Positions 14,809 to 30,713 of a stretch of 64,000 nt of DNA are shown in pieces. The DNA comes from Deltaproteobacteria bacterium (GTDB taxonomy: Bacteria; Desulfobacterota; Desulfobulbia; Desulfobulbales; Desulfurivibrionaceae). Every line of letters begins with the position of its first letter. Within the stretch, counting starts at the first letter, position 1. The stretch is from contig DUZW01000009.1 in the NCBI GenBank assembly GCA_013349295.1, positions 20,924 through 84,923 on the forward strand, given 5' to 3'. Below the pieces are notes generated by a model that worked only from the letters and a program-made list of their open reading frames with translations, did not search any database and was not told the origin of the DNA. A program made the translations under genes and the position numbers.

Positions 14809-16089
14809 TTACTGGGCGTTACGCTTACGGAATTCCTTAACATCACGCTCAAAACCGCCTTCAACCTCGTCTTCCTGCCAGAACACATAGGGGTTGGAAC
14901 GAGGCTCCTTGATATGTTGCGGAACGGGCGTAACTTCCATTACCTTCAGGAAGGTGGGCAGACCGACACGCATGATGGTCTCACCAACACGCTCACGGTT
15001 TTTGCCGACTTCCATCCACCAATCCCAGATCTTCTCGATCACTTCGATGACTTCTTCGAACTCAGTCTCAGGATTAACATCGATAAAAGGAATGGTCATG
15101 GTAGCGAACTGGGCGCCGTCAAGAATCGGGGCCTTGGCGCCGACACAGATGGTTGCTCCCTGCTTGAGACCGGGACGCAGCGCACGAGGCATTACGTTGA
15201 TGCAATGCATGCAACGGGTGCACTCGGAGTTGTCGATCTTAAGGGTATCGCCTTCCATCCACATGCATTCGGTGGGACAGAGATCAAGAACCTCTTTCTT
15301 GATGTCGAACTTGCCCCAATCCTTGCCGGAGTGAGCGCCGGCATTGGGAATGAACTCACCGCTGATGTAACCCTTAACCGCAGCCTGATCGATGCGGATG
15401 TCGTCGCGCCAGGTGCCGATAACAGCAAAGTCGGAACGGGCGATGGCGGCAACGCAATCGTTGGGGCAACCGGAAAACTTAAATTTGAACTTATAAGGGA
15501 AAGCCGGACGATGGATCTCGTCCTGGTAATGCATGGTCAGGTGGTGACAGAGAGCCTGGGTGTCATAGCAACCCCACTCGCAACGAGCCCGGCCAAGGCA
15601 GCACTCGGGAGTACGAAGGTTGGAGCCGGAACCGCCGAGATCCTGATTCAGATCGTGGGTCAGTTCGTAGAACAGGGGCTCCAGGTTCGGGGTGGTGGTG
15701 CCGAGAAGAACCAAGTCGCCGGTGGACCCGTGCATGTTGGTCATACCGGAACCGTATTTCTCCCAGAGGTTGCAGATGTCGCGAAGCTTCGCGCTGCTGT
15801 AAAACTTACTGGAAGGCTGGTTCAAACGTACGGTGTGAAAATGAGCCACACCGGGAAACTGATCCGGCACATCCGAGTACCGGCCGACAATACCGCCACC
15901 GTAACCGAAAACACCGACGATACCGCCGTGTTTCCAATGAGTAATTCTGTCCTTAAAAGACAGCTCAAGCTGACCCAAAATGTCAAAACACTCGGGTTTT
16001 TTCTCTGCCTGACGCTTCAGGTCAGTGACGAAACTCGGCCACGGGCCTTTTTCGAGCTCGTCCAACAAAGGCGTATCATGCTTCGGCAT
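14809..16089 (-). CDS. dsrA: Dissimilatory sulfite reductase alpha subunit
   Basis: The 426-residue catalytic subunit binds the functional sirohaem. The cluster cysteines are in CCLGRARCEWGC and FSGCPNDCVAA, and the ferredoxin domain is CTRCMHCINVMPRAL. A GGGAGG site precedes the ATG at 16089 (MPKHDTPLLDELEKGPWPSF). It heads the dsrABD operon. The 16090-16320 region upstream should hold the promoter, but no clear consensus boxes are seen. Length and motifs match the reductive bacterial type; together with DsrD this argues against an oxidative-type rDsr. Confidence 0.97.
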   Translation of the reverse strand: MPKHDTPLLDELEKGPWPSFVTDLKRQAEKKPECFDILGQLELSFKDRITHWKHGGIVGVFGYGGGIVGRYSDVPDQFPGVAHFHTVRLNQPSSKFYSSAKLRDICNLWEKYGSGMTNMHGSTGDLVLLGTTTPNLEPLFYELTHDLNQDLGGSGSNLRTPECCLGRARCEWGCYDTQALCHHLTMHYQDEIHRPAFPYKFKFKFSGCPNDCVAAIARSDFAVIGTWRDDIRIDQAAVKGYISGEFIPNAGAHSGKDWGKFDIKKEVLDLCPTECMWMEGDTLKIDNSECTRCMHCINVMPRALRPGLKQGATICVGAKAPILDGAQFATMTIPFIDVNPETEFEEVIEVIEKIWDWWMEVGKNRERVGETIMRVGLPTFLKVMEVTPVPQHIKEPRSNPYVFWQEDEVEGGFERDVKEFRKRNAQ

Positions 16090-16547
16090 TGTCGATTCCT
16101 CCCTTACTAAGGTAAATTAAATAGGTTTCTAATAAATAAACCGTTCGCCCAGCATCGTTATTTCCAACTCGCAGCACTGAGGGGGCTTTCGAGGCAAGGC
16201 GATTGTAACTACATGTAAAATGTGAACAGTGATTCAGTCAGAGGACCATAGCCAGTGCCGCACTCTTTGTCAATAAAAAATGATATGTTTCCAGCCGGTG
16301 TTTTCATCTCCGCGCCCATTTCTTGTTTTCCTTAACCCACTGGCCTTACCGGTCTAATTTAGCGAGACATTACAAGGACCGCAACATCCTTTTTTGTGCC
16401 TGTTTTCTCCCGGTCGGACATTCCCACGAAGGTGTTTATCTCCTCTTTTTTTTCCTGTACATTGTAGGCACTATTCAGGAGCCGTTCTTGTCATTCAAAC
16501 GACGCCAAATGTATTTTTTTCAACGGCTAACTCGCGAGGAAGCTCCC

Positions 16548-16853
16548 ATGCCAAGACCCAAAAAAATACGTCACTGCGAAGGGCAGAGATGCGGCAAAGC
16601 CTTCAAGCCCGCCCGCATCCCTTTGGCGGAATTGAGCCACATCCCTCTTCTTCAGGATGAGCTGGAAGCCTTGCGGCTCTGCGATCTACAGGGCTTGACC
16701 CAGGAGCAGGCAGGAAACAAAATGGGAATTTCACGGGGAACGGTACAGAGAATTCTGACCTCGGCCCGGCACAAGGTTGCCCAGGCGCTGGTGGAAGGGG
16801 CTGCCCTCATCATCGAAGACAGCCCCGCACTCCAAAATGAGATGAAGAGGTAA
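16548..16853 (+). CDS. DUF134 (UPF0251) helix-turn-helix protein
   Basis: The 101-residue putative DNA-binding protein starts MPRPKKIRHCEGQRCGKAFKP, the DUF134 opening with paired cysteines. A sigma-70-region-4-like helix-turn-helix follows (LTQEQAGNKMGISRGTVQRILTSARHKVAQAL). The start at 16548 has GAGGAAG upstream; the track's 16323 start reads through non-coding sequence. DUF134 genes are often beside NifX/NifB-domain genes, as here, where the two converge with only 2 bases between the stops. The regulatory target is unknown. Confidence 0.9.
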   Translation: MPRPKKIRHCEGQRCGKAFKPARIPLAELSHIPLLQDELEALRLCDLQGLTQEQAGNKMGISRGTVQRILTSARHKVAQALVEGAALIIEDSPALQNEMKR

Positions 16854-16855
16854 GC

Positions 16856-17260
16856 TCAGTGCCCTGCCCCATGACAGTTGCCGTGTCCCTGGCAGGCCTG
16901 GGTGGGATCCATCAGGATCAGCTTGTTTTCGACCATGCCCGCGACAACCTCGGCAACCGTTTCAAAGGCATGACGGGCGGCAAAATACACATCAATACCG
17001 ACTTGGGCGAATCCCTGTAACGGCCTCGCCCCCATGCCCGCCACGAGAACGACCTGAACACCATGCTCTTTCAGCATACCCACCGGCTCCATGCAGCCAC
17101 CGGCGCCATGCTCGACACTGACAACCGTATTCACGCCGACAACCTTGCCGTTTTCCAAGTCGACCAGGGTAAAGAGGTCGCAATGCCCGAAGTGCTCGGA
17201 ACGTTCACCCTCAAGTCCGCCAGGGTTGTTTGATGGAACCGCAATTCTTTTCTTGTCCAT
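16856..17260 (-). CDS. NifX/NifB-type dinitrogenase Fe-Mo cofactor-binding domain protein
   Basis: The 134-residue protein has the Nitro_FeMo-Co fold: IAVPSNNPGGLEGERSEHFGHCDLFTLVDLENG, then GMLKEHGVQVVLVAGMGARPLQGF. The C-terminus is Cys/His-rich (ACQGHGNCHGAGH), suggesting metal binding. Such proteins in non-diazotrophs are thought to handle Mo/Fe clusters, but their role is mostly unknown. Start ATG 17260 with an AAGGAG site. No nif genes are nearby, so a direct role in nitrogenase is not supported. Confidence 0.85.
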   Translation of the reverse strand: MDKKRIAVPSNNPGGLEGERSEHFGHCDLFTLVDLENGKVVGVNTVVSVEHGAGGCMEPVGMLKEHGVQVVLVAGMGARPLQGFAQVGIDVYFAARHAFETVAEVVAGMVENKLILMDPTQACQGHGNCHGAGH

Positions 17261-17309
17261 AAGCTGACTCCTTCCGTCTTCAGACGTGTTTCTTTTTTTC
17301 TTCCCTTTT

Positions 17310-18296
17310 CTATTCCGCGCTGGGCGCCGGCCCGAAAATCCTGTCGCTGAACTTCACATACCAGGCTGCGGACTGGACCTGAACGATATAAGATACCGCG
17401 ATCACCAGGGCAGCATCCGCCCCCTTGCTTCCGAAGGCATTGATGGCGATAGCCAGAGCGATGGAAAGGTTTCGCATCACCGTCCCGTACACCAAGGCGA
17501 TGGCATCGCCGCGATTAAAAAATACCCTGCCGACCATGGTACTCAGACCGAAATTAAACACATACATAATGAGCAGCGGCATAAAAATACCGCCCAGAAT
17601 TCCAGGATTCTCCGAGATTCCCTTAGCCTTCAGGGCAATGGCCACAAAAACAATACCCAGCACCCCCACCGTAGACAAGGAGGGGAAACGGGATGCCCAG
17701 GTTTGCTTGAATTCCTGCATCCCATATTTTCTCAAAAACATCTGCCGGGTAAGATAGCCCAGAAACATGGGCAAAAAAACAATGACAAGTATCTGTTTGA
17801 CCACCAGCATCAGGTCAATATCGACCCTGGCGCCCATGAGCCCCTGCACATAGAAAGGTGTGGCCAGCGACCCCAGGGTCAAACCGATGACGGTCATATT
17901 GACGGCGGCGGCCAGATTCCCCTTGGCAAATCCTGTCCAGGAAATGGTCATGCCGCTGGTTGGCAACAGGGAGGCAAGGAGCAGGCCCAGTGCCATATAA
18001 GGTTGGTCCCGGAAAAAAATAAGCCCCAGGCCATAGGCGATAAAAGGTACAACGGCAAAATTGACGACCTGGGCAAAAAGCTGCAACCTGACATTTTTGA
18101 TCCCGTCCTGCAAGGACCTGATGTTCAAAGTCACCATCATGGGGTAGACCATAAGAAAGGTGAATGGCAAAATCAGGGCCTTAAGCGCGTACAAAGATGC
18201 GGAAACAGCGCTGAGCCCGAACAAATATCCCGCCGCCATCATGGCCGGGATGAGCACAACCAACCGCTTGTTGAGTTTGATCAAAAAATTCCACAT
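17310..18296 (-). CDS. BASS/ACR3-superfamily carrier
   Basis: The 328-residue inner-membrane protein has about ten hydrophobic segments and resembles the bile acid:sodium symporter / arsenite efflux superfamily (VYPMMVTLNIRSLQDG in TM3; SGMTISWTGFAKGNLAAAVNMT mid-protein). Classical Acr3 arsenite pumps have an essential cysteine in TM4 (ARCIAMV). Here the corresponding stretch reads PTSGMTISW with no cysteine, so arsenite export is doubtful and the substrate is unknown. Start ATG 18296 with a GAGGA site. It lies divergent from the 18699 flavoprotein across a 400-base gap. Confidence 0.75.
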   Translation of the reverse strand: MWNFLIKLNKRLVVLIPAMMAAGYLFGLSAVSASLYALKALILPFTFLMVYPMMVTLNIRSLQDGIKNVRLQLFAQVVNFAVVPFIAYGLGLIFFRDQPYMALGLLLASLLPTSGMTISWTGFAKGNLAAAVNMTVIGLTLGSLATPFYVQGLMGARVDIDLMLVVKQILVIVFLPMFLGYLTRQMFLRKYGMQEFKQTWASRFPSLSTVGVLGIVFVAIALKAKGISENPGILGGIFMPLLIMYVFNFGLSTMVGRVFFNRGDAIALVYGTVMRNLSIALAIAINAFGSKGADAALVIAVSYIVQVQSAAWYVKFSDRIFGPAPSAE

Positions 18297-18611
18297 GGGG
18301 ATATTCCTCGCCTCATCAAATTAAAAAAAGCCAGTCATTCAGGTTGGTGCGTCGCATCAAGCATCCCGCGAAGCACCAGGAAGGATCAGCCGGAGAACCG
18401 TTTGAAATCATCTGGACACTTGCCGAGTTCAGCTCGATCCGAATCTTTCCGGTTCAAGCTGCTACCCTTTCATTCTTCCTATTTTTTTTAAAACTTCAGA
18501 GAAATGCACCGGCCTCATTATGTGCATATGCTCACAATAAGCCGGAGAAAACCGCGTGTCAAGCCGGGAATTAAGCAAAAAAGAAAACATTTAAACACCC
18601 ACCCGAAAGGT

Positions 18612-18645
18612 TTGACAGACAGCGCCAATCGCGATAGGCTATCGC
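18612..18645 (+). promoter_or_regulatory. Putative sigma-70 promoter with palindromic operator
   Basis: A TTGACA -35 at 18612-18617 is followed after 17 bases by TAGGCT (a 3/6 match to the -10). A perfect palindrome GCGATAG-g-CTATCGC (18631-18645) overlaps the -10. This sits 54 bases before the flavoprotein ATG and suggests repressor control. The rest of the 18297-18698 gap shows no gene. Confidence 0.45.
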
Positions 18646-18698
18646 ACATTCGCGCGACCTAATCAACTATACTCACTCTTTATATAAGGACAGTTGCC

Positions 18699-20423
18699 AT
18701 GGGGAAAAAAATCGTAATCATCGGCGGTGTTGCCGCCGGACCAAAATCCGCCTGCCGGGTTAAACGCCTCATGCCCGATGCCGAGGTGACCATCATCGAT
18801 CAGGACAGCCTTATCTCCTACGGAGGCTGCGGCATCCCCTACTATGTTTCCGGCGATGTCTCCGATGAAAAGGAGTTGCGAAACACCAGCTTCCACATGA
18901 CCAGGGATGAGTCTTTTTTTCTCAAGGCCAAGGGGGTCACCGCCAGAACCAACACCCTGGTCCTGGCCATCGACCGCAGGGAGAAGCTCGTGCTCGTTGA
19001 AGATATCACCTCCGGCGTACAAGAAAGCATACCCTACGACAATCTGGTCATTGCCACCGGCGCCCGACCCAATGTCCTGCCCATTCCCGGCGCGGAACTG
19101 GACGGAGTCTTTACCATCAGCGATCTGCACAAGGCTATTGCCATCAAGGAGCGGATCGCCAGGGGCGAAGTGAGCCGCGCGGTGGTCATCGGCGGCGGCG
19201 CCATCGGCATTGAAATGGCCGAGGCCTTCACCGACCTGTGGGGAATCGACACCACCATCCTCGAGTTCATGCCCCAGGTTCTGCCCCGGCTGGTTGACTG
19301 GGATTTTGCCCGAATGCTGGAAACCCACCTCCGGGAAAGCGGGGTGACGGTGTTCACCGGCGAGGGTGCCTCGGCCATTGAAGGGAAAGACGGCAAGGTC
19401 TGCCGGGTTGTTACCCCCAAACGGACCCTGGAGGCAGATCTGGTCGTGATGGCCGTGGGCGTCCGGGCGAGAAGCGAACTGGCCCAAGCCGCCGGACTTC
19501 TCGTTTCAGCCATGGGCAATATCGTGGTCAACGAACGGATGCAGACCTCGGACCCAAACATCTACGCGGCAGGAGACTGTATCGAGGTGAAAAATATCAT
19601 CACCGGCAAAGGCTCCATAGCCCCCATGGGCTCGCTGGCCAATCGCGAAGGAAGAATCGTGGGGGACAATCTGGCAGGCATCCCCACCAAATACAAGGGC
19701 TGGATCGGCAGCTTCATCATGAAGGCCTTTGAACGCAGCATCGCCGCCACAGGCCTTTCCCTCGACGCGGCCTTGGCCGAGGGCTTTGCCGCCGCGGCCG
19801 TGACTACCGCCCAGTCCGACCGGGCTCATTTTTTTCCCAGCCAGGCCGTTATTCCGCTTCGTCTCATCTTTGACACCAAGACCCGCAAGGTTCTCGGCTG
19901 CCAGGGCTTCGGCCCCATGAGCGACGCAGTGCTGGCCCGAATCGATGCTGCCGCAGGCATCATCGGCCAAGGCGGCACCATCGACGACATCAGCCAGCTG
20001 GAAATGGCCTACGCTCCGCCTTTTGCCACGGCCCTCGACGCCCTGAACGCCACGGCCAACGTGGCCGACAATCTGGCCGCCGGACGGCTGCGCTACGTGA
20101 GCACCAGGGACTTTCTCAACTGGATGGACAATTTTTCCAGCCAACCGGACTGGGTGGCCCTCGACCTCCGCCACCCCAACGAGGCTGGGGTCTTTGTCAA
20201 AAAATACGGCAAGGACAGATGGCACTCCATCCCCTACATCGAAATCCGGGAGCGCTATCAGGAGTTGCCCAAGAACAAGACCATGCTCATCATCTGCGAT
20301 GCGGGCACCCGCTCTTCCGAAATCCAGATCATCCTGGATCATGTGGGGCTTGCCGACAATCTGGTTCTGGGCGGCGGCTTCAATCTCATCCGCAGAATGG
20401 GCGTGGACTGGTGGCCCAACTGA
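18699..20423 (+). CDS. FAD-dependent disulfide reductase with rhodanese domain (CoA-disulfide reductase-like)
   Basis: The 574-residue pyridine nucleotide-disulfide oxidoreductase has FAD motif IIGGVAAGPKSACRVKRL, the single active-site cysteine SYGGCGIPYYVSG (about residue 47), NAD motif VIGGGAIGIEMAEAF, and a second FAD motif IYAAGDCIEV. A C-terminal rhodanese domain (about 470-574) keeps the catalytic cysteine in IICDAGTRSSE. Fusions of this type include CoA-disulfide reductases and NAD(P)H-dependent sulfur or polysulfide reductases (Npsr). In this sulfur-metabolising context, persulfide or polysulfide handling is likely. Start ATG 18699; neighbours are not obviously functionally linked. 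Confidence 0.88.
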   Translation: MGKKIVIIGGVAAGPKSACRVKRLMPDAEVTIIDQDSLISYGGCGIPYYVSGDVSDEKELRNTSFHMTRDESFFLKAKGVTARTNTLVLAIDRREKLVLVEDITSGVQESIPYDNLVIATGARPNVLPIPGAELDGVFTISDLHKAIAIKERIARGEVSRAVVIGGGAIGIEMAEAFTDLWGIDTTILEFMPQVLPRLVDWDFARMLETHLRESGVTVFTGEGASAIEGKDGKVCRVVTPKRTLEADLVVMAVGVRARSELAQAAGLLVSAMGNIVVNERMQTSDPNIYAAGDCIEVKNIITGKGSIAPMGSLANREGRIVGDNLAGIPTKYKGWIGSFIMKAFERSIAATGLSLDAALAEGFAAAAVTTAQSDRAHFFPSQAVIPLRLIFDTKTRKVLGCQGFGPMSDAVLARIDAAAGIIGQGGTIDDISQLEMAYAPPFATALDALNATANVADNLAAGRLRYVSTRDFLNWMDNFSSQPDWVALDLRHPNEAGVFVKKYGKDRWHSIPYIEIRERYQELPKNKTMLIICDAGTRSSEIQIILDHVGLADNLVLGGGFNLIRRMGVDWWPN

Positions 20424-20449
20424 TTTCTCCAGCTTCCCCACGATGGAGG

Positions 20450-21022
20450 ATGACCGTCGGCCCAATCCCCATGGCGGTCACCCTCCTGTTCTGTCTGCTT
20501 ATCGCAGGGACGGCTTCCGCGACCAACGCCCAGGCAAAAACAAAAGTCCCCGCCCCTCAACCCGGCGCAGTCCGGGCCGTAGCCGATTCCGCCTATGGCG
20601 ACACCCTGGCCGCGCTGATCACAAACGCCAGACAACGCATTGATCTCTCCATGTTTCTCTTCAAAACAACCCCGGCCAGTGACAACCGACCGACAGGGCT
20701 CGTAAGGGATCTGGTGGCGGCCAGACAACGGGGGGTAACGGTCCGGGTTATCCTGGAATATTCCAAGCATGACCAAACGCTCAACCGGGCGAACCATGAG
20801 ACGGCCCAAGCCCTGAAAAAAGGCGGAGTCGCGGTTTTTTTCGACTCCGCCGGCCGCACCAATCATACCAAGCTGGCTGTCGTCGATCGACGTTACTGCC
20901 TGGTGGGAAGTCACAATCTCACGCAGTCGGCCCTCATGCACAACCACGAGTTTTCCCTGCTGCTTGACAACCCGGCCCTTGCCGAGGAGATTCTGGCCTA
21001 CATGGAGACAATCCTGCAGTAA
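20450..21022 (+). CDS. Secreted PLD-family protein with a single HKD motif
   Basis: The 190-residue protein has an N-terminal hydrophobic signal (VTLLFCLLIAGTASA) and one HKD motif, HTKLAVVDRRYCLVGSHN. That architecture is typical of dimeric Nuc-type nucleases and their phosphodiesterase relatives. It probably acts in the periplasm on nucleic acid or phospholipid. The start is uncertain: ATG 20450 (overlapping GGAGG) or ATG 20471; the track's 20219 start overlaps the flavoprotein and is not credible. It converges with the topoisomerase-like gene 25 bases away. Confidence 0.8.
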   Translation: MTVGPIPMAVTLLFCLLIAGTASATNAQAKTKVPAPQPGAVRAVADSAYGDTLAALITNARQRIDLSMFLFKTTPASDNRPTGLVRDLVAARQRGVTVRVILEYSKHDQTLNRANHETAQALKKGGVAVFFDSAGRTNHTKLAVVDRRYCLVGSHNLTQSALMHNHEFSLLLDNPALAEEILAYMETILQ

Positions 21023-21047
21023 CATCCCTGCGTCAAGCTGCTGCTTT

Positions 21048-23759
21048 TCATTTCTTTCTCCTGACAATACGGACCTTTTTCGTCGCCCCGCCAGCCGTTC
21101 CGCTTCCTGGCGCAACGCGGCGCACCAGCACTTTCTTTTTCACCGGCACACCGACTGGCTCCTGCTCCGCAGCGCCGGTTCCGGCCAGAGGCCGGATGAA
21201 GGTACAGCCGGCCTTGGGGCATCGCAGGGAAGCCCTGCCATCAAGACTCTTTTTTTCCACCAGAAACGGCGAATCACAGACCTGACAGGGAATAGCATGG
21301 GGTTTGGACCAGGCCATGAATTCACAATCCTGTTCGGGACAGACATAGAAAATCTTCCCCGTGGGCGTATGCTTGGTCACCACGGTACCAGTCCGGCACA
21401 CCGGACAGAGCATCCCCGGCCCACCGTCTTTTTCGTAAGATGCTGAATGTCGGCATTCGGGATGCCCCGAACAGTACCAGTACTTACCGAAACGATCCTC
21501 CTTCAACAACAACGGCCTGCCGCAGTCGGGACACGCCTTGACAACCGACCCAGCCGTCGCTGACTCTTGCTCCACAACGGGAGAAACCCCAGCCCCTTCC
21601 GTCGGAGGCATCGGCTCGTCGATGGAAATCGCCGCCTCGGCAAACATCTTTTCCGCGGCAGCGGCAAGCTCGGGCGAAACGACCTCTTCCCCGGCCACAG
21701 GTTCATCCAGGGCAATGGACTCTTGCTCCTCCACCTGACCGGGTCCTACCGCTTCACCCTGAACCTCGCCCGTTTCGGCCACGTCGCTTACGGAACCATC
21801 CTCACCTCCCGCCGCAACCTGCGTCCCCGCCTCGACCGGCGGCGCAGGACCGGCAGCAGCCCCCATGCCCGCTTCCGGCACCGGCTGCACTGGCGCACCA
21901 GACTCCACAAGCGGCTCCGGAACGGGAAGCAGCGTCTCCTTTTCTGCCCGGGTCGAGGCAACCTCTGCCGCTGAATCCGGGGCCTTCACCGCCTCCCCTT
22001 CCTCCGGCAACCGAATAACACTGCGTGAACTGATGCCTCGTTTCTGAATGGCAACAGGCACCGCCATTTTCACCAAAACCTCGCCCCGCATCATCATGGT
22101 CTGGTCAAGCTGCTGCAGGGCAAAAGCCAGAGATTTTCTGCCGCTCACCGCCTCTTCGATGGTCTGGGCCAGATAGGCGGAAAGATGAACCCCCTTCATG
22201 GTCGGAAAAGCACGATTCATAACACCTACCAGCTTGATGGTGTTCTCGGCGCACCGGAAAGACCCGTCCGGCATTATCCGGAGATAATTGCTGTCGATCA
22301 TCTGCTGGAGCATGGCCACGGTCATTCCGTCGATCTCCAAAAAGAAATCGGCAAGATCGGCGGACAGCCCCTCAAAGCTGTAGTATTCAGGGGGGATACC
22401 AGTATTTTTTTCCGGAATAATCTGCACACAGCGGAGCGGTTGCCCCGGTTGCGCATCAGCCAAGGGAGAAGGCGGCGCCAAAAGTTCATGCTCCTGCAAG
22501 CCAGGATAGATGGCGAGAAAGCCTTTATCCGTCACAACCTTGGTGCTCCCCAGAAAAAGGCAGTATTCTCCCGCCTCCACCGTCACAGCGCGAAGCTCTC
22601 CTTGGGCCTCTTTCATCTGACTTGCCAAGGCTCTGGCCCAGACCAACCGATATATCTTGTCCTCCGCCGTTCCCAATTTCCCAGAAAGCTCTTCCGGGCC
22701 AAGCTCCGGCAGAGTGGGAAGGATCACCCCCCTGGTATTTGCCGGAATGATTTCCGACCCCAGACAATTCTTGCCCAGCCTTTTTTCCACCTGTTCCCTG
22801 ATCTTTGCAAACAAGGTTATCAAGCCATCCTGCTCCATCTCCGGAGGCAAAAATGCGGTAACAAGCCCCAGATGTCGACCATCCACCTCCACACCATAAT
22901 ACAAATTGCGGATCGCAGTCATTGCCGCCAAGGGCGAAAGCCCACCCTGCGCGACCCCATCCCGCAACAATTCCATAAAACAATAGGGCTCCGGCGGGGC
23001 AACAGCAAGCCGCGAACCCACCACTTCGCGAACCTGAAACGACTCATTGTTAAAGAGATTGATGGCGGCATGCACCTCTTTCTCGCTTCGGAGAAAACCG
23101 TCATCAGTGACCCCGTAAGCCTCATGCAGGCTGAGGATAGAATCCCCTGCCTCGCTGCTGATTTTGACCTTCACTTTCCATTTGGCGACCGGGGTGTACA
23201 TCCGAATCTCGGTTTCCCGCTCCGCCAGCAAAAAGAGAGCGGTGAGACTCGGATAATTGAGCGGCAGGCCACTGGGACCGGTGCGACTGCCGAGGAGACG
23301 TTGCAAATGCCTCCCCAGATAGGATTCAAAAAGCATCCTGACGTAGGTGGCCGAGCCCCTCTCCCCGCTGACCGGCTCCACCCGTCGAAAGGATTCCCTG
23401 AGCGCCTCTCCGGCAAGGCCGGTCAATGCGAGCCTCTTGGGTTGCGCACTGCCGGGGGCGACCGTGGCCCAATAGCCGCTGATCAGCCAGGACCAGAACT
23501 CCCCCCGCCAATCACCATCTAGGCCGAGATATATTTCCCTGCCCTGGCAAGCCAAAAGTCTGTCCAGAAAGAGCTTCTCCTTGGTTTCCGGAGCAAAATC
23601 AAAATGCGCCTTTTCCCGACGCATATGGTCCTTGGGAGAAACACAGGACGCCTTCGCAGGAGGTGCCTGCACGAGAAGGATATCAATCTCTCCGCCAAAC
23701 TGATCTTCCAAGGTTTTAGCCTTGGCCGCCGCCTCGACGATGACTACGGGATTTGCCAT
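21048..23759 (-). CDS. Degenerate type IA topoisomerase-like protein, active-site Tyr missing
   Basis: The 903-residue protein keeps the outline of bacterial topoisomerase I. It has an N-terminal Toprim (VVIVEAAAKAKTL; IYLGLDGDWRGE at about 76-87), the central core (IYRLVWARALASQM), an Ala/Pro/Glu-rich linker (about 590-735), and three C-terminal topo zinc fingers (CPDCGRPLL...CRHS, CPVCRTGTV...DCEFMAW, CQVCDSPFL...GCTFIRP). Where TopA has YITYMRTDS, this protein has LVTAFLPPE, so the nucleophilic Tyr (here Ala302) and the following Arg are lost. AHEAIRP is also gone, and the third Toprim acid is Arg. It should bind DNA but not cleave it. It is divergent from the acidic-repeat FGE gene. Confidence 0.85.
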   Translation of the reverse strand: MANPVVIVEAAAKAKTLEDQFGGEIDILLVQAPPAKASCVSPKDHMRREKAHFDFAPETKEKLFLDRLLACQGREIYLGLDGDWRGEFWSWLISGYWATVAPGSAQPKRLALTGLAGEALRESFRRVEPVSGERGSATYVRMLFESYLGRHLQRLLGSRTGPSGLPLNYPSLTALFLLAERETEIRMYTPVAKWKVKVKISSEAGDSILSLHEAYGVTDDGFLRSEKEVHAAINLFNNESFQVREVVGSRLAVAPPEPYCFMELLRDGVAQGGLSPLAAMTAIRNLYYGVEVDGRHLGLVTAFLPPEMEQDGLITLFAKIREQVEKRLGKNCLGSEIIPANTRGVILPTLPELGPEELSGKLGTAEDKIYRLVWARALASQMKEAQGELRAVTVEAGEYCLFLGSTKVVTDKGFLAIYPGLQEHELLAPPSPLADAQPGQPLRCVQIIPEKNTGIPPEYYSFEGLSADLADFFLEIDGMTVAMLQQMIDSNYLRIMPDGSFRCAENTIKLVGVMNRAFPTMKGVHLSAYLAQTIEEAVSGRKSLAFALQQLDQTMMMRGEVLVKMAVPVAIQKRGISSRSVIRLPEEGEAVKAPDSAAEVASTRAEKETLLPVPEPLVESGAPVQPVPEAGMGAAAGPAPPVEAGTQVAAGGEDGSVSDVAETGEVQGEAVGPGQVEEQESIALDEPVAGEEVVSPELAAAAEKMFAEAAISIDEPMPPTEGAGVSPVVEQESATAGSVVKACPDCGRPLLLKEDRFGKYWYCSGHPECRHSASYEKDGGPGMLCPVCRTGTVVTKHTPTGKIFYVCPEQDCEFMAWSKPHAIPCQVCDSPFLVEKKSLDGRASLRCPKAGCTFIRPLAGTGAAEQEPVGVPVKKKVLVRRVAPGSGTAGGATKKVRIVRRKK

Positions 23760-24064
23760 GCACCTCTCCCCACAAATTTTCCAACCACAAAAGAGTCCTG
23801 TTTAAGAAAAAAACGTAAAGGTATTGCCTTTCCTTCACGAAAAACAGCATATAATCTGCAACGACTTTATACAATCAATTATGATGATCTTGCCGGAAGT
23901 CGTGACCCCGCCAACAAACGGTGGCCACCATTTCGAAAATCCGCAAAAACAAACGGTTGACTCTTTCACCTGAAAGACCGGCTGCTGCGTTTTTGAGCTT
24001 TTACGATTTCAACACTTATCCGCAAACTTTTTTTTGGCTTGCACCTTTTTCAGCCGGAGCCCCC
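23760..24064. other. Divergent promoter region
   Basis: About 300 bases between the topoisomerase-like gene and the acidic-repeat gene. It includes AT-rich blocks (CATATAATCTGC, ACTTTATACAATC) that could hold back-to-back promoters. No gene seen. Confidence 0.4.
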
Positions 24065-26653
24065 ATGCCCGCCCTGCTCACTCTCCAAGGCATTGATGAA
24101 ACCCTCGATAACCTTGAGTTAAAGGAAGGAACCCTCAAAGCGGAACTGGCCAAAGTTATACGGTCCTATTTCGTTGACGAATCTTCCATACAGTCCATCG
24201 CCAGCATCCCCACCGATGAGATCGTCATCAAAATCTGGGGGCCCTGCCAGGATGAAGAACTCAAAGCCAAGAAGAAAAACTTCAGCTCCCTCAAGTCCGC
24301 GCTCAATAAATCCCTCAAGGATCTCGACAAGGCAGGAAAAAATCAGGCCGGCATCATTGTTGGCCGAGACAACGTCTTTATTGTTTCGGAAGAGCGCAAG
24401 GATGACCTCCTCAAACAGATGGGGCTTTCGCCAAACTCGCCGCATCTTCTTCACGACATGCTCGCGGCCTTCAAAAAATTCTTTTCCGAAAACATCAAAG
24501 AGCAGAACGTTCAAGAGGTCAAGGATCTGCTGGCGGAGTTTGAAGAAGCGCAAAAAAAATTAAAAAAGTTAGTCGGCCTTGAACCGGAAGCAGAGATAGA
24601 CGAAAAAGCCCCCGAAACTGCGGTGCCAAGCCCGGAGAAAGAAAGCGGAGAAAAAGACTCAACCGAAACCGTTGAACTCCTTGAGGGAGATGAATTTGAA
24701 GTTATTGAGGAAAGCGAAGAGATAGAGGTTCTCGACGAGGAGGAAATTGAAGAGATCGTAGGCGAAGAACGTGATGACATCCAACTCCTCGAAGAGGAGG
24801 TCGAAATCATCGATGCCGACGAGATCGAGGAGGTTCGCGAGGAAGAGGCTCCTCTTGACCAAGGCCTTGGAGAAGAAGAAGGCGGTCCGCCGGAGGAAGG
24901 TTGCACGGAAGAGGTTGAGGTTCTTGACGAGGACGAACTCGAAGAAATCGTGGGAGAGGAGCATGATGACACCCAATTCCTCCAAGAGGAAGTCGAAGTC
25001 ATCGATGCCGACGAAATCGAGGAGGTTTGCGAGGAAGAGGCTCCTCTTGACCAAGGCCTTGGAGAAGAAGAAGGCGGTCCGCCGGAGGAAGGGAGCACAG
25101 AAGAGGTTGAGGTTCTTGACGAGGATGAACTCGAAGAGATCGTGGAAGAAGAGCATGATGACACCCAATTCCTCGAAGAGGAGGTCGAAGTCATCGATGC
25201 CGACGAGATCGAGGAGGTTTGCGAGGAAGAGGCGCCTCTTGACCAAGGCCTTGGAGAAGAAGAAGGCGGTCCGCCGGAGGAAGGGAGCACTGAAGAGGTT
25301 GAGGTTCTTGGCGAGGACGAGATCGAAGAGGTTCTCGAAGAAGAGGCTCCTCTTGACCAAGGCCTAGGAGGGGAAGAATGCGGTCCGCCGGAGGAAGGAA
25401 GCACGGAAGAGGTTGAGGTTCTTGACGAGGATGAGGTCGAAGAGATCGTAGGCGAAGAGTGTGCTGACACGCAACTCCTTGAAGAGGAGGTCGAACTCAT
25501 CGATGCCGACGAGATCGAGGAGGTTCTTGACGAAGAGGCTCCTTTTGACCAAGGCCTTGGAGAAGAAGAAGGCGGTCTGCCGGAGGAAGGAATCACGGAA
25601 GAGGTTGAGGTTCTTGACGAGGACGAACTCGAAGAGATCGTGGAAAAAGAGCGTGATGACACCCCATTCCTCGAAGAGGAGGTGGAAATCATCGAAGAAG
25701 GGGATCTGGAAGAAATTGAAGGCGTTGCGGAACCGTTGGCGGAAAAGCTTCATCAGCCGAGCCCCCTGGAGGTTCTCTCAAAATACATCGAAGCGGAAGA
25801 AGCGATCAACCAGGGAGAGTTGCTCAGGGAAACCCAGGAGGAGTTTATCAATCAAATCCTGGAGCGTTTCATGCCGAAATTCATCAAGATTCCCGCCGGC
25901 GTCTATCTGGTCGGCAGCGCCACCCCCAAAGGGTTGGAACAACCCCTGCGGAAGGTCATGCTCCATGATTTCTACCTTGGCCAATCTCCCGTGACCAACG
26001 ACCTGTTTGACATGTTTGTCCGGGAAACCGGATACTTGACCGATGCGGAGGAAGCGGGCTACGGCATAGTTTTCGAAGGCCGCTGCACCAACAAAATAGA
26101 CCCGGAGACCGGCAGGGAAATCTTCAGCCTGAACAGGGGAACACTTGCCCGCCATGTGAGCGGGGCAAACTGGCGCCATCCGGCCGGTCCGGGCAGCTCC
26201 CTGGAGGGCAAACATAATCATCCCGTGGTACAGGTCAGCCACCGCGACGCCATGGCCTTTGCCGCTTGGGCAGGCAAACGATTGCCCACGGAGGAGGAAT
26301 GGGAAGCTGCGGCCCGCGGTGCAAGCGGCCAGCTCTTTCCCTGGGGCAATATGTGGCTGGCGGAGCTGGGTAATTTTGAGGCTACCTGCCTCGGCGGGAC
26401 AAGTTCCGTCGAGCATTTCGGGCGCAAGGCCATGAGTCCATTCGGCATCCATGATCTGCTGGGTAACGTTGCCGAATGGACCTCATCCCCCCATGCCGGA
26501 CAGACAGAGCCGCAGCCAGGTCGCTCAGTGGAGAAAATCTATATCATCAAGGGCGGATCCTGGATAACCGGAGGAACCGTGACCGCGGCATGGCGCCAGA
26601 TCGAACAGGGAAAATACTGGACAAACACCATCGGCTTCCGCTGCGCGGTATAA
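24065..26653 (+). CDS. FGE/SUMF1-domain protein with long acidic repeat array
   Basis: The 862-residue protein starts at ATG 24065 (MPALLTLQGIDETLDNLEL), with GGAG upstream; the track's GTG at 23921 is unlikely. Residues 1-180 form a helical domain I do not recognise. Residues about 218-542 are an array of roughly five 64-residue Glu/Asp-rich units (EVEVLDEDELEEIV...EVIDADEIEEV...EAPLDQGLG). The C-terminal about 260 residues are a formylglycine-generating-enzyme/SUMF1 domain (IPAGVYLVGSATPKG, RLPTEEEWEAAARG, LLGNVAEWTSSP, IKGGSWITGG, GFRCAV). Many FGE-fold proteins are not sulfatase activators but binding or other oxidative domains. No sulfatase gene is nearby. Cytoplasmic; no signal peptide. 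Confidence 0.85.
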   Translation: MPALLTLQGIDETLDNLELKEGTLKAELAKVIRSYFVDESSIQSIASIPTDEIVIKIWGPCQDEELKAKKKNFSSLKSALNKSLKDLDKAGKNQAGIIVGRDNVFIVSEERKDDLLKQMGLSPNSPHLLHDMLAAFKKFFSENIKEQNVQEVKDLLAEFEEAQKKLKKLVGLEPEAEIDEKAPETAVPSPEKESGEKDSTETVELLEGDEFEVIEESEEIEVLDEEEIEEIVGEERDDIQLLEEEVEIIDADEIEEVREEEAPLDQGLGEEEGGPPEEGCTEEVEVLDEDELEEIVGEEHDDTQFLQEEVEVIDADEIEEVCEEEAPLDQGLGEEEGGPPEEGSTEEVEVLDEDELEEIVEEEHDDTQFLEEEVEVIDADEIEEVCEEEAPLDQGLGEEEGGPPEEGSTEEVEVLGEDEIEEVLEEEAPLDQGLGGEECGPPEEGSTEEVEVLDEDEVEEIVGEECADTQLLEEEVELIDADEIEEVLDEEAPFDQGLGEEEGGLPEEGITEEVEVLDEDELEEIVEKERDDTPFLEEEVEIIEEGDLEEIEGVAEPLAEKLHQPSPLEVLSKYIEAEEAINQGELLRETQEEFINQILERFMPKFIKIPAGVYLVGSATPKGLEQPLRKVMLHDFYLGQSPVTNDLFDMFVRETGYLTDAEEAGYGIVFEGRCTNKIDPETGREIFSLNRGTLARHVSGANWRHPAGPGSSLEGKHNHPVVQVSHRDAMAFAAWAGKRLPTEEEWEAAARGASGQLFPWGNMWLAELGNFEATCLGGTSSVEHFGRKAMSPFGIHDLLGNVAEWTSSPHAGQTEPQPGRSVEKIYIIKGGSWITGGTVTAAWRQIEQGKYWTNTIGFRCAV
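24719..25692 (+). repeat. 192-bp-period coding tandem repeat
   Basis: Unit starts (GAGGTTGAGGTTCTTG or variant) fall near 24719, 24911, 25103, 25295, 25409 and 25601. The spacing is exactly 192 bp except for one unit with an in-frame 78-bp deletion (114 bp). Units are near-identical at the DNA level, pointing to recent duplication. The antisense ORFs 24511..25692 and 24659..25360 are by-products. Confidence 0.9.
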
Positions 26654-26727
26654 AAAAAGGAGCAAGGTCAAGGTTAAAGGTACAAGGAAGAGGTAAGCTT
26701 TTTCCTTTCGCCTTTAGCCGTTAGCCT
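26654..26727. terminator. Purine/pyrimidine-mirrored region between convergent genes
   Basis: AGGTTAAAGGTACAAGGAAG pairs imperfectly with CCTTTCGCC...CCTTTAACCTT around AGGTAAGCTTTTT. It lies between the converging FGE-protein and aroB genes and could act as a weak two-way terminator. Confidence 0.35.
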
Positions 26728-27822
26728 TTAACCTTTCGCCTTGGGCCTTGCCCCTAATACTGTATCAATCAGCTCCTCGCTCACCGCATCGGTGACAACA
26801 ACCTTGCCGATCTCCGTGGGCAGCACAAAAAATGGACGTCCGCCCACGGTTTTTTTATCTGTTTTCAGAAACGACTTGATCTGTTGCGGGGAAAATTCCG
26901 CTGGGATTTTCACGGACAGGCCGTAATCGGCGATGAGCTGGCACACGGCGTCCGCCTGCTCCTGGGCAAAAATCCCCTTGCCCACCGCCAGCCCGCAGGC
27001 TGCCACCATCCCCAAACCAACAGCCAAACCATGGGCCATGGCATAGTTGGAAGCGGCCTCCACCGCATGCCCCAGTGTATGACCGAAGTTCAAAATACGA
27101 CGCAGATCAGCCTCGCGCTCGTCCGCGGCCACCACAGCGGCCTTGATCTCGCAACAGCGGGCAATCACCTCTTCAAGTACCGTAATATCCCTGGCCAGGA
27201 TGGCCTCTCGTTGTTCGACAAGATACCGAAAAAACTCCGCGTCATATATCACCCCATATTTGATCACCTCGGCCAGTCCGTTCAAAAGCTCGGCCGAGGG
27301 AAGCGACATGAGAACATTGCTGTCGATGTACACGCAACGAGGCTGATAAAAGGCGCCGATCAAATTCTTGCCTTCGGGGATATCAACTCCGGTTTTCCCC
27401 CCCACCGAGCTGTCCACCTGAGCAAGGAGAGTAGTGGGAATCTGGACAAAAGGGATACCCCGCATGTAAATGGCGGCAAGAAAGCCGGTGATATCTCCGG
27501 TTACTCCGCCCCCAAGGGCGATGAGCGCATCCTTCCGGTCCAGCCCCATCTGAGCAAGCCTGCTGGCCAGCTCAGCAACCGTGGCCAGATGCTTACTTGC
27601 CTCGCCTTGAGGAAAGGTGATGAGTTCAGCGGAAACACCTGCCGCGGTCAAAGAGGCCATGAGTCTGCCGCTCACCAGTTCCGCGACATGGGAATCAGCC
27701 ACCACCACATACCGCTTGGCTATGGCGCGCTGCTTGAGATCCGCACCGATTGCCTCCAAGAGGCCATTTTCGATCAAAATATCATAACCCCTGTCGCCGA
27801 GGCCAACCCGTACTGTCCGCAT
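26728..27822 (-). CDS. aroB: 3-dehydroquinate synthase
   Basis: Second step of the shikimate pathway: DAHP to 3-dehydroquinate, NAD- and Zn/Co-dependent, in the cytoplasm. The 364-residue protein shows LGGGVTGDITGFLAAIYMRGI, PTTLLAQVDSSVGGKTGVD, the metal-ligand regions LAEVIKYGVI and NFGHTLGHAVE, and a C-terminal LPTEIGKVVV. The start is ATG 27822 (MRTVRVGLGDRGYDILI) with GGAAGGATAAGG upstream; the track's 27954 start is an upstream extension. Length and motifs are normal. Confidence 0.96.
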   Translation of the reverse strand: MRTVRVGLGDRGYDILIENGLLEAIGADLKQRAIAKRYVVVADSHVAELVSGRLMASLTAAGVSAELITFPQGEASKHLATVAELASRLAQMGLDRKDALIALGGGVTGDITGFLAAIYMRGIPFVQIPTTLLAQVDSSVGGKTGVDIPEGKNLIGAFYQPRCVYIDSNVLMSLPSAELLNGLAEVIKYGVIYDAEFFRYLVEQREAILARDITVLEEVIARCCEIKAAVVAADEREADLRRILNFGHTLGHAVEAASNYAMAHGLAVGLGMVAACGLAVGKGIFAQEQADAVCQLIADYGLSVKIPAEFSPQQIKSFLKTDKKTVGGRPFFVLPTEIGKVVVTDAVSEELIDTVLGARPKAKG

Positions 27823-27932
27823 ATCCTTATCCTTCCGCCTTTCGGAGTCTCGACTCCACCTTGATTCCCAGACTTTTAACTTCTTCGTAAATCGACCTAC
27901 CCTATAAAAAATCGCATAACATTGCAACCTTC

Positions 27933-27960
27933 TTGACAAGTCCGGCAGGATCACTAGACT
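27933..27960 (+). promoter_or_regulatory. Sigma-70-like promoter for the winged-helix gene
   Basis: TTGACA (27933-27938), a 16-base spacer, TAGACT (27955-27960), about 50 bases before the ATG at 28013. Confidence 0.5.
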
Positions 27961-28012
27961 GAATACAAGAATGCTCCAACAGACAACACCGATTTACAGG
28001 AGGGGAGAAACC

Positions 28013-28525
28013 ATGGCAGCCAAGAAAGACAAATCCGTATTGACCGAAGCAGGGAAAAAAGTAGGCAAAGCCTTGGCCAGATCGGGCCATACGGCAGAAA
28101 AAACCGGCAACAAGATGAAAAAAGCAGCGGAGAAAATCGTAAAAGAGGCCGAAAAAACAGTGGAATCCGCCATCGGCAAGGTTAAAGCTGAGTTGAGCGG
28201 CTTGCCTGCTCAAACGAAACTTATGCCCTTTGGGTATAAAAAAGAAGTGAGCGAACTCACCCATAAAAAAACAACCTGCGCGACGCCTGAAAAAGGCCCC
28301 TTATTTAAACCAAGCAAAAGCATGACCGTGGAAGGCCAGATCGGCTTCCTGGCCGGAGACATCTTTATGTATCTGAGCGAAAACGGCCCGACCCCGGTAG
28401 CAAAAATCACCAGCGTCATGGAAAACCGAGGCAGCCTTGCGCTCCTTGGCGCGGCGCTGGGATGGCTGGCCCGGGAGGCTAAGATATCCTTTTCCAAGGA
28501 CGGTTCCAAGGTCTCAGTCATCTGA
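28013..28525 (+). CDS. Lys/Ala-rich N-terminus fused to a winged-helix domain
   Basis: The 170-residue protein starts MAAKKDKSVLTEAGKKVG with an AGGAGGGG site. Residues 1-60 are very Lys/Ala-rich and helical (AEKTGNKMKKAAEKIVKEAEKTVESAIGKVKAEL), recalling histone-H1-like bacterial proteins. The C-terminal 70 residues resemble a DUF2582-type winged helix (TVEGQIGFLAGDIFMYLSENGPTPVAKITSVMENRGSLALLGAALGWLAREAKISF). A nucleoid-associated or regulatory role is inferred. It has its own promoter and no operon partner. Confidence 0.7.
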   Translation: MAAKKDKSVLTEAGKKVGKALARSGHTAEKTGNKMKKAAEKIVKEAEKTVESAIGKVKAELSGLPAQTKLMPFGYKKEVSELTHKKTTCATPEKGPLFKPSKSMTVEGQIGFLAGDIFMYLSENGPTPVAKITSVMENRGSLALLGAALGWLAREAKISFSKDGSKVSVI

Positions 28526-28572
28526 ACCCAGCTTGTCATCAGGTTATTACTCCGAAGGTTAACTATCAAACC

Positions 28573-28603
28573 GTCATTCCCGCGAAGGCGGGAATCCATG
28601 CTT
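28573..28603 (+). repeat. Left inverted repeat of the GIY-YIG cassette
   Basis: GTCATTCCCGCGAAGGCGGG followed by AATCCATG. It is nearly identical to the reverse complement of 28897-28927 and internally palindromic (ATTCCCGC/GCGGGAAT). This sequence type is a common dispersed repeat in proteobacteria. Confidence 0.8.
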
Positions 28604-28607
28604 GAGA

Positions 28608-28898
28608 ATGAAAAAACAAGCCGCCGTTTATATTCTGGCAAGCAAATACAACGGCACCTTGCATATCGGCGTAACCAGCAATCTAACCCAAAGGATTTGG
28701 CAGCACAGGGAGGACCTGCTTGAGGGTTTTAGCCGAAAATACACTGTCCATTTTCTCGTGTATTACGAATTGCATGAGGAGATGCCCACAGCGATTTTAT
28801 GTGAAAAACAGCCCAAGAAATGGAACAGACAATGGAAGATAAACTTGATCGAAAAGAGTAATCCGGAATGGAAAGACTTATGGCCAGAATTGAGCTGA
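28608..28898 (+). CDS. GIY-YIG family small nuclease-like protein
   Basis: The 96-residue protein starts MKKQAAVYILASKYNGTLHIGVTSNLTQRIWQH and continues ILCEKQPKKWNRQWKINLIEKSNPEWKDLW. This is the YhbQ-like single-domain GIY-YIG family (VYI...HIGVTS, Arg and Glu of the active site retained). The cellular role is unknown. It is bracketed tightly by inverted copies of an ATTCCCGC-type repeat; the left copy abuts the start and the right begins around the stop. The ATG at 28608 is preferred over TTG 28602. Confidence 0.88.
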   Translation: MKKQAAVYILASKYNGTLHIGVTSNLTQRIWQHREDLLEGFSRKYTVHFLVYYELHEEMPTAILCEKQPKKWNRQWKINLIEKSNPEWKDLWPELS

Positions 28899-28927
28899 GC
28901 ATGGATTCCCGCCTGCGCGGGAATGAC
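28897..28927 (-). repeat. Right inverted repeat of the GIY-YIG cassette
   Basis: TGGATTCCCGCCTGCGCGGG followed by AATGAC, the inverted mate of 28573-28603. A degenerate second tail follows: ATGACATGATTGCCAGG, then ATGACGTGATTGCCGGAC about 65 bases on, suggesting a short tandem event. Confidence 0.75.
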
Positions 28928-29026
28928 ATGATTGCCAGGCTGGACGGAATTTTTTTCAACTCTTGATTCTCGCCCCCGATCTGGTCGGTGGCATGACGTG
29001 ATTGCCGGACCAAGCAAAATATCCAC

Positions 29027-29070
29027 AAAAATGGGGGGAGATGCCGAAAGGCATCTCCCCCCATTTTTTT
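29027..29070. terminator. Strong bidirectional terminator after sat
   Basis: AAAATGGGGGGAGATGCC-GAAA-GGCATCTCCCCCCATTTTTTT forms an almost perfect stem with a tetraloop and T-runs on both strands. It ends sat on the minus strand and the GIY-YIG region on the plus strand. Confidence 0.9.
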
Positions 29071-29098
29071 CATATACAAAAACTCAGGTACAGCGATA

Positions 29099-30376
29099 TT
29101 ACATCTTGGCGCCGGAAGCAGCACCCTGCATCTTAACCTCTACCTTCTCGGTCAGACCCTGGTAGTACTCCTTCAGGATAACGAGAACCTCGTCGCGGCC
29201 GAAATGCGGTACAATCTCGGCGCCCTCGGAAAGGGCCTTACGCAGCTTGGTACCGGAGAGGATAACGCGATCCTCCTTGGAGTGCGGGCAGGTACGCAGG
29301 GAAGCCATACCGTCGCACTTGTGGCAGTAGAAGGTCCAGTCGATCTTCAGCGGCTTACAGATCAGAGCCTTGCCTTCGGCCAGATTCTGAGGAATCTTGT
29401 CGAAGATGGTCTGAGCTTCGAACAAACCGTAGAAGTCGCCAACACCGGCATGGTCACGACCGATGATCATCTTGGTGATGCCGTAGTTCTGACGGAAGGT
29501 TGCATGGAGCAGAGCCTCACGGGGACCGGCGTAACGCATATCCAAGGGGTAACCGGCCTGGATGACGTTGTCTTTTACAAAATAGTGCTCAACCAGACAA
29601 TCGATAGCCTTTACGCGAACCTCAGCGGGGATATCGCCTTTCTTCAGGTTGCCGATCAGAGAGTGGATCAGAACGCCGTCACAAACCTCGATGGCGATCT
29701 TGGCCAGGAACTCATGGGAACGATGCATGGGGTTACGCAGCTGCAGGGCAGCAACGTCGGACCAGCCGCGCTCTTCGAACATGGCGCGAACTTCAGCAGG
29801 GGTCAGGTAAACGCCCTTGTACTTGGCAGGATACTCGCCCTCGGAGAGAACCTTTACCGGACCAGCCAGGTTCACTTCCTTCTGAGCCATAACCATCTTG
29901 ACGCCCGGATGATCTTCCATGGCGATCTTCCAGAACTTGTCGTCGGCAGACTCCTCGCCTTCGCCCTTGAAGACCTTCTCACACTCCCACTTCTTGTCAG
30001 CCTCGCTCATCTCGAACTTCTCGGTGATCTTCATGGTGGCGTAGATCTCGCCGTCAGCCTCAAGAGCAACCTCGTCGCCGACCTTGATCGCATCGGCATC
30101 GGCCTTGGAAACGTCCAGAGTGATGGGCAGGGGCCAGAAGGTGCCGTCAGCCATGGTAAAATTCTCAACAACGCCCTTCCAGTCAGCCTTGTTCATGAAG
30201 CCGTTCAGCGGAGAAAAACCGCCGATGCCCATCATGATCAAGTCGCCTTTTGCCCGAGCGCTGATCTTGATCTTCTTGAGGCCTTTGGCCTTTTCCTGCT
30301 CAGCGGTACGCTCGTTGCCGTGCAGCAAGCAGCATACCAGACCTTTTCCACCATGGGGAGCGACTAACTTAGACAT
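29099..30376 (-). CDS. sat: Sulfate adenylyltransferase (ATP sulfurylase)
   Basis: The 425-residue dissimilatory-type enzyme activates sulfate to APS, or runs in reverse. Motifs are [15 protein letters not shown] and [12 protein letters not shown] for nucleotide and sulfate binding, and [15 protein letters not shown] for a zinc site of the archaeal/bacterial short form. The start is [14 protein letters not shown] at 30376 with an AAAGGAG site; the track's 30532 start is a leader extension. It is not adjacent to apr or qmo here. Together with DsrABD it places the genome in dissimilatory sulfur metabolism. Confidence 0.97.
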
Positions 30377-30713
30377 GATCAAGTCTCCTTTGTATAATGA
30401 TAAAGATAATATTGAAAGAATGCACAATTGCACAATGAACACGGATTCAGTTTGACCGTCAGGTATACGGGAGGCCCAAATAATTGTCAAGGAAAAATTC
30501 TTCGACCAAAAACAAAGGCGCCCTTCCGCCATGTTCCCGGCTTGGGGCGATTTTTCATTTTACGGGAAATATGACCAGGGGAAAAAAAGAGGAGAGAACA
30601 AACTGATTATTCACTGCAAATGGACGCACCTATAGCGTCCACTGCCGATCATTTTTTTTAGCACCGGCAGCACAGGGACAACACACAAAAACACGCAGGA
30701 CTCGAACTACGAG
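30377..30713. other. Intergenic between flaG and sat
   Basis: About 340 bases with the sat promoter region (AT-rich at 30385-30440, boxes not assigned) and a small GGACGC/GCGTCC hairpin at 30622-30640 that may help end the flaG transcript. No gene seen. Confidence 0.4.

Follow-up and report, generated by a model that had tools for sequence, protein, structure and literature searches.

A very probably non-cleaving relative of topoisomerase I, kept with a SUMF-like partner across a bacterial order, and its possible place in DNA organisation

Few enzymes acting on DNA are as well conserved as topoisomerase I, and a gene that keeps its architecture without the residues of its chemistry raises the question of what such a protein is maintained for. 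One such gene, here called TOPL, lies on the minus strand at positions 21,048–23,759 of the window, i.e., the whole stretch of 64,000 nucleotides that was analysed, and encodes a TopA-derived protein of 903 amino acids.

The open reading frame of TOPL is intact, is preceded by a good ribosome-binding site (GGGGAGAGGTGCATG), and was assigned from Pfam and NCBIfam profiles and by mapping on Escherichia coli TopA. The match to PF01131 (Topoisom_bac; E 1.3e-20, 74.2 bits against a curated cut-off of 35.1) places it in the superfamily, and together with the matches to Zn_ribbon_Top1 (E 2.2e-11) and to E. coli TopA in the PDB (E 4e-18) makes homology to TopA firm and far beyond chance. Against TIGR01051, the equivalog model of bacterial TopA, TOPL reaches E 2.6e-33 and 115.9 bits, far below the cut-off of 456.4, its identity to the TopA of its own genome is 22%, and, as far as its sequence tells, its membership among the active TopA enzymes is rejected.

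Transferring the published domain limits of E. coli TopA gives a pseudo-Toprim domain (residues about 1–130), a D4 domain in two parts (about 131–190 and 460–580) and, between these parts, D2/D3 (about 191–459), where Ala302 replaces Tyr319. These are followed by an acidic linker (581–740), by three strongly conserved C4 zinc ribbons (741–855; window 21,195–21,539, minus strand) with four cysteines each (C743/746/763/769, 785/788/807/812 and 825/828/847/852), and by a basic tail of net charge +11, KKKVLVRRV...KKVRIVRRKK (856–903; window 21,051–21,194, minus strand).

The former tyrosine motif, GLVTAFLPPEMEQD, spans residues 298–311, corresponding by calculation from the residue numbers to 22,827–22,868 on the minus strand, with the codon of Ala302 at 22,854–22,856. 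In addition to the tyrosine, Arg321 is replaced by Leu304, His365 by Arg343, and Glu115 by Arg85; E9, the DxD aspartates D111 and D113 (D81 and D83), E117 (E87) and the YxLIW...ASQM core are kept. A sequence-only reading of this DNA had described a TopA-like frame here that retains E9, DxD, an LYxLIWxxxxASQM core and three C-terminal zinc fingers, with the tyrosine changed to Ala302, the arginine lost, AHEAIRP absent and one Toprim acid turned into arginine, and the mapping on the E. coli enzyme bears out all of this. Absent from its list was the motif GRPSTYA (E. coli TopA 492–498), which is also gone from TOPL.

Comparison of 32 full-length TOPL homologues with 23 canonical TopA proteins extends these losses to the whole family. 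The tyrosine is absent from 31 of the former and present in all of the latter, the column holding serine in 17 homologues, alanine in five, threonine in five, other residues singly, and a tyrosine in one (L065). Neither Arg321 nor His365 is kept in any TOPL homologue (0/32 for each, against 23/23), and E115 is kept in one of the 32, again against 23/23. A recent mutation behind the tyrosine loss is thereby ruled out, because the whole clade is affected. The remaining Toprim acids (E9, D111, D113 and E117) and K13 are mostly kept among the homologues, with drift of the Toprim acids in L020, L065 and L070.

A search for a stand-in for the catalytic tyrosine gave no conserved candidate. Tyrosines one residue after the site are scattered among the homologues, and none near the active site is conserved across the family; in the sub-lineage of L065 and L069 a tyrosine does align at the site, and it comes with degraded Toprim acids and without Arg321 or His365. 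The complete Tyr/Arg/His/GRPST set was found in no TOPL homologue. Moreover, PF01131 is represented three times in the source genome (2.9 Mb in 66 contigs, 88% complete), by TOPL, by a canonical TopA on contig C1 (motif GLITYMRTDS) and by a TopB on contig C27 (FVTYPRTDS), which rules out TOPL as the only topA. Since the catalytic set occurs in no homologue, the genome has a normal topA as well, and the Toprim and Tyr domains are gone altogether from the distant relatives described below, TOPL is almost certainly a non-cleaving pseudoenzyme. The sequence-only reading had proposed a non-cleaving, DNA-binding protein, perhaps a structural or regulatory factor, and had suggested looking for a normal topA elsewhere in the genome and for the tyrosine loss in orthologues. 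The non-cleaving part of this proposal is strongly supported; DNA binding is plausible from the retained D4, zinc ribbons and basic tail.

Structure prediction agrees with the assignment to the fold family. The AlphaFold2 model of TOPL, built from a 14-row alignment, has a pLDDT of 53 and a pTM of 0.40, drops below 50 around the former tyrosine and, being poor over residues 289–344, gives no reliable superposition of the Tyr pocket. A Foldseek search with this weak model returned type IA topoisomerases only among the 50 matches listed, the best being E. coli TopA (E 2e-23), and the TM scores of about 0.3–0.45 with an rmsd of about 14 are to be read against the model pLDDT of 53. These results support the fold family; for the arrangement of the domains, in active type IA enzymes a four-domain toroid, they give no support.

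A scan of genome contigs yielded 17 related loci (Deltaproteobacteria, Proteobacteria, Desulfobulbaceae and Desulfurivibrio appear among the record titles), and a profile search, counted from its scores, found TOPL in 57 of the 146 genomes of the window's order, in about 11 family codes. In a tree made by a quick method, with long branches flagged, the 32 homologues form one clade (SH-aLRT 100, stem 1.94), at the base of which lies a member from outside the order, in genome G473. Pairwise dN/dS ratios (Nei–Gojobori) are 0.07–0.17 in the Toprim, core and zinc parts and 0.37–0.67 in the linker. TOPL arose once, is ancient, is under strong purifying selection and has been inherited as a pair with a SUMF-like protein; given the single ancient clade and the low dN/dS, it is a maintained pseudoenzyme and not a product of decay. 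The out-of-order full-length gene in G473 (L103:1743-4670) is split over three overlapping reading frames, by a frameshift or an assembly error, and its partner lies on another contig (L132).

The conserved partner gene, like the ParA link treated further on, had been missed by the sequence-only reading. This gene, SUMF, occupies positions 24,065–26,653 on the plus strand and encodes a conserved N-terminal domain of ~144 amino acids (24,065–24,496, plus strand), an acidic repeat linker (in the window 457 residues long, with a net charge of −180) and, at the C-terminus, an FGE-sulfatase domain. The last aligns both to human formylglycine-generating enzyme (FGE; E about 1e-39) and to SUMF2 (5e-39); the active-site cysteine pair of FGE (human C336/C341) was not found in the SUMF of the window, where the aligned stretch, GGSWITGGTVTAAW, has no cysteine. 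Unlike FGE, SUMF is apparently cytoplasmic. The N-terminal domain has no Pfam match above the cut-off, a weak match to EzrA (19 bits, below the cut-off) being disregarded, and its AlphaFold2 model (pLDDT 78, pTM 0.66) has no PDB match with E below 2.8. Nor was this domain matched in plasmids, phages or viral contigs, and a mobile origin was rejected for this reason. The acidic repeats form overlapping tandem arrays with periods of 192, 306 and 114 bp (window 24,700–25,700), and in several relatives (L004, L009, L085) SUMF is read as two frames, perhaps because the repeats or their surroundings contain frameshifts or were misassembled.

SUMF is divergent from TOPL and adjacent to it in every locus of the order with a visible flank, down to about 30% identity. 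In the window the two genes are separated by 305 bp (23,760–24,064), in which a simple scan found no sigma-70-like site. When the N-terminal domain was used as a profile (A3), 52 of the 146 order genomes had both genes, five TOPL only, none SUMF only, and 89 neither (Fisher p 3e-34, a statistic that ignores kinship); read from the coordinates, each of the five TOPL-only cases lies on a contig edge or a fragment. Across this order, which consists mostly of sulfate-reducing bacteria, TOPL is kept with the same partner.

In other orders of the phylum, where the SUMF N-terminal domain led to further loci, the TopA-derived partner is much reduced. The f31 genomes carry a mini form of 479–500 amino acids, head to tail with the SUMF gene and mostly overlapping it, which matches only positions 128–191 and 446–862 of the profile, i.e., E. 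coli TopA about 155–217 and 463 onward; by the published domain limits, only D4 is left of the cutting core, and Toprim, D2 and D3, which carries the tyrosine, have been lost. In two further orders a mini-TOPL of 409–547 amino acids lies near SUMF, usually with a ParA-type ATPase and with a small protein between them, the gene order ParA, small protein, mini-TOPL recurring in several families of two other orders. The mini forms keep the D4 motif FPxMPGxNLVAYxxQTxDEVxSGRK, two zinc ribbons and an Arg-rich RRVVRRK tail.

The ParA of these loci has an AAA_31 domain, and its deviant Walker A motif is mostly intact; at L131:1275-2003 and L152:5227-5979 the motif is altered or the ParA scores are weak, which suggests that the ATPase of the module is also being lost in places. 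The small protein, with a core of about 100 amino acids (MKITxxEVI..ADLDWxxIE..GDIVVxNxxIAYKL), is encoded between ParA and mini-TOPL (L129:10312-10830, L147:4730-5215 and 14 other loci), has no Pfam match above the cut-off and gave no match in those TOPL genomes that were searched for it. ParA is present at most mini-TOPL loci, with none at the window locus or at the other full-length TOPL loci scanned. Outside the window's order some loci depart from the pairing: at L132, L137 and L142 no TOPL adjoins the partner domain, G593 has partner and TOPL on separate contigs, and in G282 no partner was found for the mini form. A genome search for TOPL gave no match in G543 and G544 despite their partner-domain proteins (L142 and L137), where an independent use of the SUMF N-terminal domain is possible.

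As for the wider neighbourhood, in many families of the order the pair is bordered by dsrB, aroB, sat and a CoA-disulfide-reductase-like gene with a rhodanese domain, a long conserved block around sulfate-reduction genes (window 14,809–30,532). Unlike SUMF, these four genes and a PLD-family gene come and go beside TOPL. A link to sulfate reduction was considered and rejected: sat and dsrAB are widespread neighbours of the pair within the order, yet in other orders the pair lies elsewhere, so the association is taken as a fixed chromosomal position. The PLD-family gene (window 20,219–21,022) is conserved beside TOPL in most of the order, and its product has an apparent signal peptide and matches the NucT and DISARM DrmC models below the cut-off. 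No PADLOC model for a known anti-phage defence system matched TOPL, SUMF, the small protein or mini-TOPL, one weak hit for ParA (21 bits) being disregarded. A defence island was rejected, given the empty PADLOC result for the module and the DrmC-matching neighbour, which looks like a secreted nuclease of the NucT type.

The main groove for the G-strand in type IA topoisomerases is D4; the tyrosine sits on D3, and binding of the other strand falls to the C-terminal domains (PMC10969213, PMC7192597). With its D4 groove domain, ssDNA-binding type of zinc ribbons and basic tail kept, TOPL would hold on to nucleic acid that is single-stranded, underwound or branched, leaving it uncut, and would act as a scaffold with its SUMF-like partner, whose very acidic linker may contact the basic tail. 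Where ParA is present, it would move or time the TOPL complex; in the window's order it is missing from the locus. Because selection has kept the groove domain, the ribbons and the tail and has dropped the chemistry, TOPL is probably a nucleic-acid-binding scaffold that acts with its partner, although D4 may bind something else, as the TOPL family does not keep some groove residues of TopA (the Gln of GRVQS and, in the D4 pair of arginines, the second).

For the role of this scaffold, DNA organisation or positioning of the ParA type appears the most likely, since outside the window's order genes for a ParA-type ATPase and a small protein accompany the pair. This role rests on those other orders, because ParA and the small protein are not found beside full-length TOPL, and we put it forward tentatively, at somewhat below an even chance. 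More specifically, a dead TopA may have taken a ParB-like role in a DNA-organising or segregation module made of a D4/zinc-ribbon protein and an acidic SUMF-like adaptor. In some orders ParA and the small protein would drive it, while the window's order would have a two-gene form with a full-length dead TopA; we regard this version as possible and rather doubtful. Taken overall, a pseudoenzyme scaffold that has, with its partner, a DNA-organising role is a reading for which we see the chances as about equal.

In the main rival reading, the zinc ribbons would instead dock on RNA polymerase, with TOPL and its partner tuning transcription or competing with TopA for the polymerase. A link between the C-terminal domain of TopA and RNA polymerase is published (PMC4678816, PMC9352719), few parts of TOPL are conserved as well as the zinc ribbons, which resemble those of the genome's own TopA (33% identity over TOPL residues 725–858), and a solved RNAP–TopoI complex heads the Foldseek search among the matches listed. 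Such a transcription-linked factor would account neither for the ParA link nor for the partner having a conserved N-terminal domain, and we consider it unlikely.

ParA relatives also position cargo other than DNA. If the module moved, e.g., a protein assembly, the TopA-derived protein might be a nucleoid anchor only, which would accord with the recurring gene arrangement of ParA, small protein and mini-TOPL and with an FGE domain without cysteines, suggestive of a binding module. No cargo candidate emerged, though, and ParA does not accompany full-length TOPL and is itself degraded at L131 and L152, so that this explanation seems less likely still. That TOPL remains an active topoisomerase or nickase with another nucleophile or pocket is highly improbable: the mostly kept Toprim acids and K13, and the aligned tyrosine of one sub-lineage, are outweighed by the family-wide loss of Arg321, His365, E115 and GRPST, by the lack of a conserved tyrosine near the site, by the drift of the Toprim acids and by mini forms without the Toprim and Tyr domains. 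A decaying topA duplicate or assembly artefact, for which the loss of active-site residues speaks and nothing beyond, is refuted by the orthologues and dN/dS (intact frames in dozens of genomes, dN/dS about 0.1, an ancient clade and kept synteny) and retains a negligible probability.

The family forms a stepwise series, from active TopA through a full-length dead form to a D4 and zinc-ribbon remnant, that separates binding from chemistry. Its partner, which is nearly invariant, and its link to ParA offer starting points for testing how these bacteria organise DNA. In open-access text, we found neither an inactive TopA-like bacterial protein of this kind nor a conserved order-wide non-cutting branch. 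The shrinking of TOPL to its putative DNA-gripping parts in other orders, in the company of a ParA-type ATPase, suggests a DNA-handling module not described before. There is also a warning for annotation, as TOPL-like genes are probably annotated as topoisomerases.

Among known systems, the ParA/Soj/MipZ positioning systems resemble the module in that the mini form is encoded beside ParA in other orders; they differ in that an adjoining ParB or known adaptor was not seen, that the putative DNA-binding partner is TopA-derived, and that ParA is missing beside full-length TOPL. SUMF shares its C-terminal domain with formylglycine-generating enzyme and SUMF2, but its catalytic cysteine pair is replaced, and it is preceded by the acidic repeat linker and, before that, by a domain that is new. 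With the Topo_C_ZnRpt ribbons TOPL shares four cysteines and aromatic residues, followed by a basic tail, whereas the mini forms join the ribbons to D4 alone, without a cutting domain. Finally, in comparison with bacterial TopA (TIGR01051, PF01131), TOPL has the same domain order, core motif and C4 zinc ribbons, but is without Tyr319, Arg321, His365, E115 and GRPST, and is paired with a SUMF-like gene.
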